The notes beneath the pieces are model-generated. The model worked only from the letters and a program-made list of their open reading frames with translations, was not told where the DNA came from and did no database searches. A stretch of DNA of 64,000 nt from Sipunculus nudus (Eukaryota > Annelida > Sipuncula > Golfingiida > Sipunculidae), in the NCBI GenBank assembly GCA_026874595.1, contig CM049311.1, positions 64,071,453 through 64,135,452 on the forward strand, written 5' to 3'. The position numbers and the translations under genes are program-made. Positions 38,001 through 56,000 of the stretch are shown here, in pieces (within the stretch, counting starts at the first letter, position 1; each line of letters opens with the position of its first letter).

Positions 38001-41000
38001 TAGAATAATTTTGAATTCACGTCTGTTTTTCAGATTAGGCCATTTTAGTTCCTTAATTAATTTCTGTGAGCTTGTTGTAGCCATAGCACCAGTACATATC
38101 ATTGCTGGCTTTCTTTGTATGCTGTCAAATTTATTTGCAAGTTTTGTAGAACAATTATTAAATAGTTGTGATCAGTACTCCAGGACTGGTCTGACCATTG
38201 CCTTATATAACCTTTCTAATGTTTTCATGGACAGATTATATTTATAATATTTTAAAATTCTCAATCACTTAGAAGCTTTAATGCATATACGATTAATGTG
38301 ATCCACCCAAGACAGGTTGTATGTCAGTGTGACTCCTAAATATTTTACACTGTTAGTCTCATTTAATTTTATATTATTAAAATACAGAGGTTGGTAGTTG
38401 ACTTTAGCCGTTTTATTAAAAAAACATATCACGCTAGTTTTATTAGGATTAAACATAAGTTTCCACATTTGTGCCCACTGGTTTATTCTTTCTAGATCCC
38501 TGTTTAAGGATATGGCAGTAACGTCTGGATAAGTAACTGCTGCATACAAACATGTATCATCAGCATACATTCTCAAGTTATTTTCTAGTCTGTTATATAT
38601 GTCATTAACATATACTAAAAACAAAAGAGGCCCCAAGATTGAACCTTGGGGCACTCCTGACTTAATATCCGAGTAGCTGGACTGTATTTCATATAGTATC
38701 ACACAATTTTTCCGTCCGCTCAGGTAGCTATTTAAGAAATTAAGTAAGGCGCCCTCTATACCCATTAATTTAAGTTGGTGTACAAGACCTTTGTGCCACA
38801 CCCTATCAAAAGCCCACGAGGCATCAAGGCAGACAAGGTTAGTGTCGCAGCCTTTCTCGAAACCACTGTATATATGTTATATATGTTATATATTATATAC
38901 TAGTATATCTTGCTACAATATTCTATAATAAACTATTACTAATATAATAAAATGAGATTAAAGTTTATTTAGAAAAATATGAAATACCCAAAGTACTCAT
39001 GAAGTACTCATATGAGTACCGAGTACTTTCAAAGTACTCGAGTACAAGTACGAGTACTTTTGTGATTTTTAAAAAGTACTCGAATTAGAGTACTGAGTAC
39101 TCAAAAAAGTACTCATGAGTACGAGTTCTTTTGGACCCAACTCTGGTAGAAGTTAAAAATCCCATACCTAACCATATCAGATAAACTCAATAAAATCAAA
39201 ATATGTTGAGAAATAAGGGAGAAGAAGCATTTCTTGTGAATTGAGGCTGGACACAGATGGACTTAAAGATATAAACCTGACACTGCATCTATGTGGCATA
39301 AGCTCAGCAGGCCAATGGCCAGATGAGCTGAAAGAAAATCACAGTTTTGCACTGCTCCTTTTGTGCTGCTTTTCTTAAGTCCTGCAGACAATATATTTTT
39401 TCATGCATTCTTTGCAGTGCCATCTTTTCCACTTTGTCATGGCACAGGCAACACAGGGAAGAACTAACTGACATGCATTCAATCATACAATGTTTTAACA
39501 AGGGACCCATGGGTCACGGCGCTCAGCTGTTAAATATGATAAAAAATATTATTTGGGAAAGAGGCACATGCTTGTTTTGTGTGGTAAGAAATATAAGCTT
39601 TATTATGAGTTGTTGGTGTTTAGCTTATAAATAAAATATAACCGAAATGATTATTGAAATAATATTATAGAATATATTCATGAATGAATTCATGAATACA
39701 TTTTGAAAGTATCTGCACTGGTATTCAAATACTTTCATTTCTTCAAAACTTACGTTAAACAAAATGAAGTGTCATTTTATAGCCTTTATTTCGTAAATTG
39801 TACAACCTCATGGTGAAACTCACAAATCCTGATAATTAATTAATTAAAATGAAAATTACATGTCGTAATAAATAAAAACTAACATTACATAAAACTGGTA
39901 CCGTTTGACGAAAACTGATGTCATTGAAGGATTCCCGGGGATTCCCTCGATGAATGATCAAATGACACAATTTCTATAACTACAGTTTCTTCAAAACTTA
40001 CGTTAAACAAAATGAAGTGTCATTTGATAGCCTTATAGAGAGCAAAATAAAAACACTGGAGAAGCAGAAATACAGAAAGTGTCCTTAAAAATGCTGAAGC
40101 AACCAGATAAAAACTGGAAACATAAAAAGAAAAGGAAATTGACCTGTGATTCATAAATACATACGATAACAGTGGGCATTAAAGTAAAGACAGAATCCCA
40201 GGTATCAGAAAATGTACTGGTTACGCAACAAAGCATAATCACTCTTTAAAATCATGGCAAAAGGACATTGTCACAGAATACATCAGGGGTTTGTGCATGT
40301 ACATAGTGATCAAAGAAAACAGTGTCCGTTTTCCAACGCCCAACCTTCATGACTTTCCTGGGTTCGACCCCTGCCTCAACCTGCATGGTCGCACCTGTGG
40401 GATGGAAATCCTTTGCCGTAAATTCTGGGTACAACCCGGCCAATCTCAGCACGTCATTCAAACAATTAGCGATAGACTGAGCAGACAAGGCACGATAGGG
40501 TGGCTTAAGAGATATGAACACGGGATGCCCTTCAACAGATGTGAATGACGCAGTACGTTCTATGTAACATCGCAGCGTGTGAACTGGGCATAATTTTGTA
40601 ATGCTGGACGGAGGAAGGTTTACCTCAAAACCAGCTCTGTCAGTATCATTCTTGATACCTTGCAGACACAGGATTGCAGACCCATCACCTTCGAATGACA
40701 CGTTTGATCGGCCAAATATCAGCGATGTGGTAGTCAGACGCTGCGGACAAAAAGACACCGCTTTCGGGGCAACATCCAACGGCGCAACATCAGAGTTAGT
40801 GCCAGCAATGTAAGGCACTTCGCGCGAAGATCCTTGATGCATAACAGGTCGTTATCTGACCAGTTAAGGAATAAGTAGCGTATTGGTTGAACCGGAATAA
40901 CGCGCGACCGAAGGCACACCTGAAAGGTACCTGATTTTATCAAGGCTGTCACAAATCAACATACATACAGGTCACGCATTGGATTTTCCCCACCTAGCGC

Positions 41001-53000: not shown

Positions 53001-56000
53001 AGATGGATAGACAGACAGCACGACAGATGGACTGGCGACGGACAATGGACCACGACTATAGCTCAGATGACATATAGGCAGCTGAGCTAAAAATGGAATC
53101 TTATGTGGCAGGACCATTTTGAACTTTCTAATCTCTTGGTGGGTATAAACCTGTTACCTGCTTTTTCGACAGCTGCCTGTATAGCAATAGCGCCAAGACG
53201 AGGGGCAGGCACTGGAGCCAGACTGCTCAGGAAAGACCCAATAGGGGTCCTCACAGCACTGACAATCACTACATCCTGCAAGAAAAATAAAACTTAATAT
53301 CATCACTATGCACAGATAAAAGTAAAATTCAGTTCCAGTTTCTTCACATTTTCTTTTCATGGAGTTTAAAAATTCTTTAAATTTGTAGAGGAAAAGCAGT
53401 CACTTTAAAATAATTTGGGAATGATATTTAAATCTGTCAACATTTATGGCAAAGTCCTATTCCAAAACCTCTCATCAATTATTTAGATGGCATTATGGGT
53501 AAAGCTGTAATGTCTGGTACATTCTAATCTAAAATCTGTGCCACTCATAAAAACAACTTGTTTGATCCTTGAAAATACAGCTGTTGACTGAAGACAATAC
53601 AGCTGTTGACAGCAGACAATACAGCTGTTGACAGCTGACAATACAGCAGTTGACAGCTGACAATAAGATAGGTTACTGCCCTTACCTGGTAAAGGTAACA
53701 GCCCTGACAGGGATGAAAGCTTAGTACAAGCAATTGACCCAAACCTGGGGTCCATTTCAAGTACAAGTATCAAATTTGTACCTGGAGTATCTTATACCAG
53801 GTACAGGTACTTTAGTTCCTGCTACAGGTACAGGTACTCTGAATTGTGTACATAGGTACAGGTACAGGTACCTGGCCCCAACCCTGGTTGACAGCTGACA
53901 ATACAGCTGTTGACAGCAGACAATACAGCTGTTGACAGAAGGGATAAAGTTACTCACTTGACAAAAGTATTATGATGCTGTATATAACAGAGATATATTT
54001 TTTGTTCAAAGAAACCTATTACACTAATATCATTATAGTGATTTGATAATTTATATCACTCATTTGTTAAAATCTGACTTTTTTATTTCCCTTTTATTTA
54101 AATTCTAACACTTAAATATCAATACTCATCAAAGTTAAAAGATTTCAATTAATGTACACACTTTCTTTACATTATATTAATGAATTTATATAACATTCCT
54201 AAAGTGTTATAAAAATTCTAAGGAGATGAATTAAAAAATTGTAAAAAATTCCTTGTCCATTGTTAGTCTCCTGTTACTCACATTGAGGTTTCTTGTTTGG
54301 GACAGATGGCGAACCCACTGTCTAGTGGTGGTCTGGAAACAAATGTAACACACAAACAGGTTTTAAAATATTGTTATACAGAAAATCGTACAGGTTATGG
54401 ACTGTCTGAATTAATTTAAACACTATTTCAGAGTTGCATAATTAATTTTATACTTTGCAACAATGCATTCATATAATTTAATAAACAGATATTTTATTAA
54501 AGACTTGCTTTAAGACTTACACTCTGTATGTGCCTTCCAAGTGATTTTATTATTCAACCAGAAACAGTATTCATATATTATGATACTAGCAATTATCCGT
54601 GCTACGCACGGTTTGAGGCGAACACAACAATCCGTTCAGTGGTATCGGAAATCCACTTGAAATCTGGACATACAGAAAATCACACAAATCGCGTTACGCT
54701 GTTAATATAAAGATCCATTAAATGTATGGTGCTGTGGATAACAAGGGACCCATGGGTCACGGCGCTCAGCTGTTATATATGATAAAAAATATGATTTGGG
54801 AAAGAGGCACATGCTTGTTTTGTGTGGTAATAAATATAAGCTTTATTATGAGTTGTTGCTGTTTAGCTTATGTATGATTTTGATAGTATCTTTGGAGACG
54901 GGGAAGAGGATTGATTTCATTTATTTTATTAACAAATGGAGTGCTATTGTCACACAGATTTTGACTTGGCCATATAACTTATAAGCAGCACATATAATAA
55001 AAGAGTTTAACTATTTATTAAAATTTAATAACAAATATTGTGCCAATATAATTTTTGTTAAAAAAAATAATAAGAAAATCATATGATTTTTAAAATAAAA
55101 TATAACTGAAATGAATACTGAAAGAATATTATAGAAGATATTCATGAATGCATTCATGAATACATTTTGAAAGTATCTGCACTGGTATTCAAATACTTTC
55201 ATTTTTACCTGAATTCCCATTCTTATGCAATAAAATTTTTAATGCAGTACATATTCATATTCGTATTCAAATACATTTGCAAAGCATTCGCACCATGTCT
55301 AGTATTTATTCAGTTTTAGCCAAACAAAGATGTTGAGAATCAAGAATATACAAAATTCACAAATTTAAATATTGATCATAAGTACCTGGTTTTATGGCTT
55401 TTATTTATATTAAAAAAAAATAAATGTAATATATTCACTTTGGACTACTTTCACATCAATCTACACACTAGACACCGTAGGAATCTAGATTAATATTATC
55501 AACTGCATATTTGTCTATCATTAATTTCCTTCATATGATCCCTAATGATTAGTAATGAATAATATGATTTATTTTTTATCATTAAAATTTCACTGAAAAA
55601 TACCATAGATGACTGCATGGTGTTATTTGGAATAACATTGACATTGACATTCTATCCATCCATACAAGATTCTTACATCATCAGTAACTGCAAGTTAATT
55701 TTCTGTTACTCATCAACTAACAAATTCCTTTTCTATTAATTTTTCTTTAATTTGTTATTTAAAACCATTACAAAATTATTAATTTATTGTTTATTGTTGT
55801 TTTTCAAAACAACTACGAGATGAGTTGGGTTGGACACCTGGATCAACTGTGGCTGGGCATTAGCTGCCAGGCTGCCCCAGTGTATGCTTCGCTCAAGCAT
55901 GCATAATCTGATGAAAGGTCAACATACAGGTGACTGAAGAGGGGCTGGATTAAGCCTGGGTCTGACATGGTCTCATAAAAACATTAATAAAAGCTACTAT

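Follow-up and report, generated by a model that had tools for sequence, protein, structure and literature searches.

A nest of seven mobile elements in an ACAT1 intron and a HINE that travels as a passenger

When mobile elements lie one inside another, can the order of their arrival be read from the order of their nesting? This question is raised by intron 3 of ACAT1, a 24-kb animal intron that consists of mobile DNA for about 92% and in which most element boundaries can be tested. Nest depth is not the same thing as arrival order, since guests may travel inside their hosts. A preliminary description of this locus had reported a five-deep nest in which each boundary is visible, so that the elements can be placed directly in their relative order of insertion. 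Our analysis shows that the nest is real: the host elements have unoccupied copies at other loci of the same genome, and these confirm the internal boundaries. All five of the layers described are present, at positions that were correct to within a few bases, and five is indeed the maximum depth. However, the nest comprises seven elements, because two side insertions (the AT-flanked inverted-repeat element and HINE B) had been omitted. We consider it very probable (roughly 93%) that the nest is ordinary and well preserved, that its mobile elements are decayed or non-coding, that the innermost HINE is a passenger, and that the order of insertion is otherwise from the outside to the inside.

The window, by which we mean the whole stretch of 64,000 nucleotides that was analyzed, corresponds to C6:64071453-64135452 in an assembly of 1.43 Gb and 153 contigs. 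A domain search detected Thiolase_N in frames on both sides of the intron (53090-53293, 4.9e-8, and 27532-27681, 7.2e-12), the gene being located on the minus strand. The donor signal AG/GTAACAG closes exon 3 and TTCAG precedes exon 4, which together define intron 3 with a length of 24,011 bp. We take the gene to be ACAT1 on the basis of the thiolase domain and of the motifs used in the pattern search. The nest (13,593 bp) and a neighboring hAT-like element (~8.4 kb) jointly represent ~22 kb of mobile DNA within this intron, in agreement with the previously claimed 22 of 24 kb. For the family searches reported below, the best 40 candidates were scored per query, the window's own copy being among them, which leaves 39 others. 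The coordinates of all features are listed in the Table.

Table. Intron 3 of ACAT1 and the mobile elements nested in it (window coordinates).
Feature	Position	Strand	Evidence or remark
ACAT1 intron 3	29147..53157	-	splice signals and Thiolase_N frames on both sides
HINE A, outermost layer, own DNA ~2.4 kb	39497..53089	+	same end points in copies elsewhere; subterminal GCTCAGCTG / CAGCTGAGC
PAT-like DIRS retroelement (putative class) in HINE A, ~4.5 kb own DNA	39738..48998	-	split direct repeats; RVT_1, Dam, weak Phage_integrase
Retroelement repeats	A1 48909-48998; B1 39986-40034; A2 39900-39988; B2 39738-39786		alignment
AT-flanked inverted-repeat element in retroelement, 2.1 kb	41771..43878	.	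termini AGGGGACTC...GAATCCCCT; absent from the preliminary description
hAT-like element in RNase H region of retroelement	44116..46802	.	duplicated target GTAACCAG; empty site
CAGTG-ended inverted-repeat element ("CTATA element") in hAT-like element	45427..46092	.	empty site in 35/39 copies
HINE C, 175-bp remnant of ~2.4-kb passenger HINE	45806..45980	+	HINE at same position in 20/20 close relatives
HINE B within HINE A, 1.9 kb	about 50578..52465	+	empty site in 8/9 HINE A copies; absent from the preliminary description

The outermost layer, HINE A, would have landed directly in the ACAT1 intron, as judged from the end points of its family: its termini at 39497 and ~53090 coincide with those of copies elsewhere. 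With the segment 48996-50580 as query, 39 other copies were found among the best 40, at 93-96% identity. Thirty-five of these 39 copies reach the boundary with the retroelement and none continues into it, the other four stopping short. Furthermore, the two arms of HINE A are contiguous in eight of nine fetched copies (the ninth, L033, has no visible left arm), and they are likewise contiguous in a neighboring copy in the next intron (54738-57363), where the unoccupied retroelement site reads CATTTTTACC. The nested copy reads CATTT-retroelement-TTACC, which compared to this empty site fits an insertion at a TTT core without target duplication. The ends inspected display the features of a HINE, namely inverted subterminal repeats and a 3' palindrome, GACTTATAGTC, the latter being altered in HINE A. 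At 39628/39629 the window's HINE A lacks ~220 bp that other copies contain at the corresponding position.

HINE A also accommodates HINE B, the site of which (50580/52461) is empty in all but one of the nine fetched HINE A copies. The insertion of HINE B into a T/A-rich target without duplication is characteristic of a HINE, its left part has 39 other copies among the best 40 (95-97%), and one locus, L044, matches it over its full length (50574-52465). In another copy of HINE A, L037 (near 3082), a different HINE family occupies the place of HINE B (window 50577). The presence of two distinct HINE families at one position of HINE A is suggestive of a preferred site.

The retroelement in HINE A has ten other copies of its body at 90-96%, and all three that were fetched are uninterrupted at both internal insertion sites. 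It was previously labeled as a Ngaro element. Indeed, split direct repeats are present (A1 and A2 align across 89-90 bp, B1 and B2 across 49 bp), but the element also contains a Dam methyltransferase domain, which the available text of PMC4157794 denies to Ngaro. The Dam match was above the cut-off in copy L046 (5e-7), just below it in L047 (2.4e-6) and below it in the window (0.0018). RVT_1 was strong, and Phage_integrase was weak in the window (0.0012, below the cut-off) and absent from the frame of L047, which is partial. According to the text available from PMC4157794, a putative methyltransferase is encoded by DIRS elements and missing from Ngaro and Viper, and split direct repeats are found in PAT elements; the accessible part of PMC3266345 concurs on these criteria and describes a single PAT-like family from the mollusc Lottia. 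By the criteria of PMC4157794, split direct repeats combined with a Dam domain point to a PAT-like and not a Ngaro element, an assignment by structure and domains to which the homoplasy warning given by the source of the class criteria applies. With the PAT-like DIRS elements described in these two sources the retroelement would share the A1...B1A2B2 repeats, a reverse transcriptase, a Dam-type methyltransferase and possibly a recombinase-like frame, and it would differ from them by the broken frames and the two foreign insertions of the window copy. Retroelement ends without a body were also observed (G000 C5:36774413-36774923, C4:46953293-46953671 and C1:68277935-68278314); some are short tandem arrays with an A-B unit ~130 bp apart, and they resemble a DIRS counterpart of solo LTRs.

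Two elements are inserted separately in the retroelement. The AT-flanked inverted-repeat element has 39 other copies among the best 40 (92-98%). AT was found at both flanks in all seven fetched copies, and the empty site reads CCATATGGC in all three fetched retroelement copies, which fits a 2-bp target duplication; an alternative TA-flanked reading of this element was dropped on the basis of these data. We take the AT target to be reminiscent of ISL2EU-type elements. The hAT-like element has short inverted ends, CAGGCTTGGGTCAAGT, and the 8-bp sequence GTAACCAG at both ends, as was previously described, while this sequence occurs only once in each of the three fetched retroelement copies. When its flanks are joined they form one RNase H frame, and L047 has this frame intact naturally.

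The arms of the hAT-like element abut at the CTATA site (window 45426/46093) in 35 of the 39 other copies among the best 40, as counted by hand; one of the remaining four has a partial deletion of the right arm and three end short of the junction. In all 11 fetched copies this site is unoccupied, nine of them reading GCCTATAAG and two having one base changed. Unoccupied copies are thus available for the sites of the hAT-like element, the AT-flanked element, the CTATA element, the retroelement and HINE B. We also considered a sixth layer within the hAT-like element, suggested by the inverted repeats AGTGGTGGG and CCCACCACT near 44902 and 46223 with TTGGTA flanks. This was rejected because the 40 matches scored for 44880-45426, of which the window's own is one, all cross the left border of such a layer; 37 of them begin at the first base and the others no more than 3 bases from it. 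The repeats at 44902-46237 belong to the hAT-like family, where they are possibly the relic of an insertion that predates the family.

The innermost pair is formed by the CAGTG-ended element and HINE C. Among the best 40 relatives of the CAGTG-ended element, twenty loci match through the HINE start at 94-98%, and all twenty of these close relatives have a HINE at the same position. In another 16 loci both carrier arms are adjacent without a HINE (left arm 81-90%), and two more loci have a single arm. In the twenty composites the left part runs into a longer HINE, which measures ~2.4 kb in the copy on C10, and not into the 175-bp form, with the HINE end and the right arm of the carrier lying further on; right ends were recovered for all twenty and are 91-100% alike. 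All 20 composites are bounded as a whole by an exact duplication of 6 bp, with 19 different sequences, while one of four HINE-free copies has an exact 6-bp duplication and the other three are older and inexact. The common position of the HINE and the 6-bp duplications around the composites show that the two moved as a unit. The HINE had therefore already inserted into an ancestral carrier by the time the composite reached the hAT-like element. Accordingly, HINE C is a passenger inside its carrier and not the last arrival. The claim that the order can be read directly holds from HINE A via the retroelement and the hAT-like element to the CTATA element, but it fails for the innermost pair, in which the HINE traveled with its carrier.

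Two features are peculiar to the window composite. The deletion junction of HINE C is spanned by the window alone among the 40 scored matches, and GAAACTCT is repeated at this junction, a pattern such as faulty end-joining or interrupted gap repair would leave. The window composite is flanked by the 5-bp duplication CTATA, as reported before, but the family makes 6-bp duplications, and CTATA is probably CCTATA minus one base.

These data need to be weighed against other explanations. If five elements had landed independently from the outside to the inside, with the 175-bp HINE last and a Ngaro element as layer two, every boundary described would exist, and the nesting does read in this way as long as the family copies are disregarded. 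The HINE at the same carrier position in all twenty relatives, with the duplications around the whole, contradicts this account for the innermost pair, as does the Dam domain for the Ngaro label; its outer four steps stand, while as a whole we regard it as very unlikely. Alternatively, HINEs could have inserted repeatedly and independently at one site of the CAGTG-ended element. That a target preference exists is indicated by the two families, HINE B and that of L037, at one place in HINE A. Nevertheless, identical orientation and place at 20 loci is difficult to obtain by chance. Moreover, over the carrier arm and the HINE start the divergence from the window is only 1.3-1.7% in the nine copies compared, and the right arm with the HINE end is 91-100% alike in the 20 loci; HINE-free copies with both arms are 81-90% alike on the left arm. 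Repeated insertion is scarcely credible.

Repeats of such kind can also be misjoined, and our analysis is based on the assembled sequence. However, the window contains no N bases, and its junctions show base-exact target duplications that have matching single-copy empty sites elsewhere. Since a misjoin would not create such a combination, an assembly artifact is most improbable.

For the nest with its passenger HINE, divergence offers a separate view on the order of insertion. We determined the private substitutions of the window copy relative to the fetched copies, which represent upper bounds on the time since insertion and vary with the copies sampled. These amounted to 26/1528 (1.70%) for the HINE A right arm, 23/2019 (1.14%) for the retroelement, 17/1227 plus 7/522 (1.37%) for the hAT-like element, 23/2089 (1.10%) for the AT-flanked element, 5/522 (0.96%) for the composite and 7/1170 (0.60%) for HINE B. 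Copies were excluded if their best single alignment covered less than 85% of the query, which left 7 of 10 copies at the 3' end of HINE A and, for the right arm of the hAT-like element, 8 of 11; the set 'DIRS 40035-41768', with one comparison copy, was also excluded. Only one of the 15 uncorrected comparisons gave p<0.05 (HINE A versus HINE B), and the hAT-like element was slightly above its host retroelement (1.37% versus 1.14%, p=0.56). None of the 15 comparisons showed an inner layer to be significantly older than an outer one, a pattern that the preliminary description had named as evidence against itself, although these comparisons have little power. The private substitutions are not in conflict with the outer-to-inner order, but they are too few to prove it.

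HINE A is thus the host of the retroelement and, separately, of HINE B, the retroelement is the host of the AT-flanked element and, separately, of the hAT-like element, and the latter is the host of a CAGTG-ended element whose subfamily carries a HINE at one fixed position. HINE A would have been the first to enter, through rolling-circle transposition to a point 68 bp off the donor site of exon 3, and the entry of the retroelement into HINE A was probably mediated by a recombinase acting at the TTT core. CAGTG ends are usual for hAT elements, and the composite may have been moved by a cut-and-paste transposase, of the hAT6 type as judged by the duplication length. The passenger HINE would have lost ~2.26 kb through faulty repair, either before or after its arrival. 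All elements of the nest were presumably mobilized by proteins encoded elsewhere in the genome; genome-wide domain matches (143 Helitron_like_N and 150 Dimer_Tnp_hAT) represent candidate sources of the moving proteins. Cut-and-paste, rolling-circle and recombinase-based insertions used each other as targets here, and a new mechanism is unnecessary.

HINE or Pearl elements are non-autonomous Helentrons, and according to the available text of PMC4067079 and PMC7492417 they are widespread in bivalves. The HINEs of this nest share with the elements described there the inverted subterminal repeats, the palindromes near the end, the inner tandem-like repeats and a T/A-rich target without duplication. 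They differ in that one of them is a fixed passenger in another kind of transposon. The accessible part of PMC12730594 names hAT6 together with 6-bp duplications. The CAGTG-ended family shares such duplications with hAT6 (20/20 composites), but the element is without a transposase, and 6-bp duplications also result from IS3EU according to the same text. A precedent for hitchhiking is MER6, a mariner-derived element with a SINE domain (PMC6887750, available text). In both cases a guest was amplified within a cut-and-paste carrier, but the present guest is a rolling-circle HINE and the copies are young (1-2% apart). For bivalve nests, passenger composites and nesting depth, no literature benchmark was used beyond MER6 as presented in the available text of PMC6887750.

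While the nest is mechanistically ordinary, its most interesting part is this clean composite family, in which target duplications enclose both carrier and passenger. Because guests travel inside hosts, nesting chronologies need to be checked for insertion positions that are common to family copies. Uptake of the HINE might even have allowed the CAGTG-ended element to spread recently, in which case the two-engine composite, a cut-and-paste carrier with a rolling-circle passenger, would be thriving as a mobile unit instead of forming a dead nest, but we consider this doubtful. Of the best 40 relatives, the 20 young ones (95-98% across the main match) all contain the HINE; the HINE-free two-arm copies reach at most 90%, and one single-arm copy, in which the HINE state is unseen, reaches 91%.

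The neighboring hAT-like element (window 30710-39145), which has GTAGAAGT flanks on each side, is itself a nest: its family copies match only up to ~32229, and a HINE starts at ~32236. A LINE reverse transcriptase is located at 38268-38876 within the same element. Elsewhere in the window, the longest listed stop-to-stop frame (464 aa, 10444-11835, plus strand) resembles host coding sequence of a neighboring gene.
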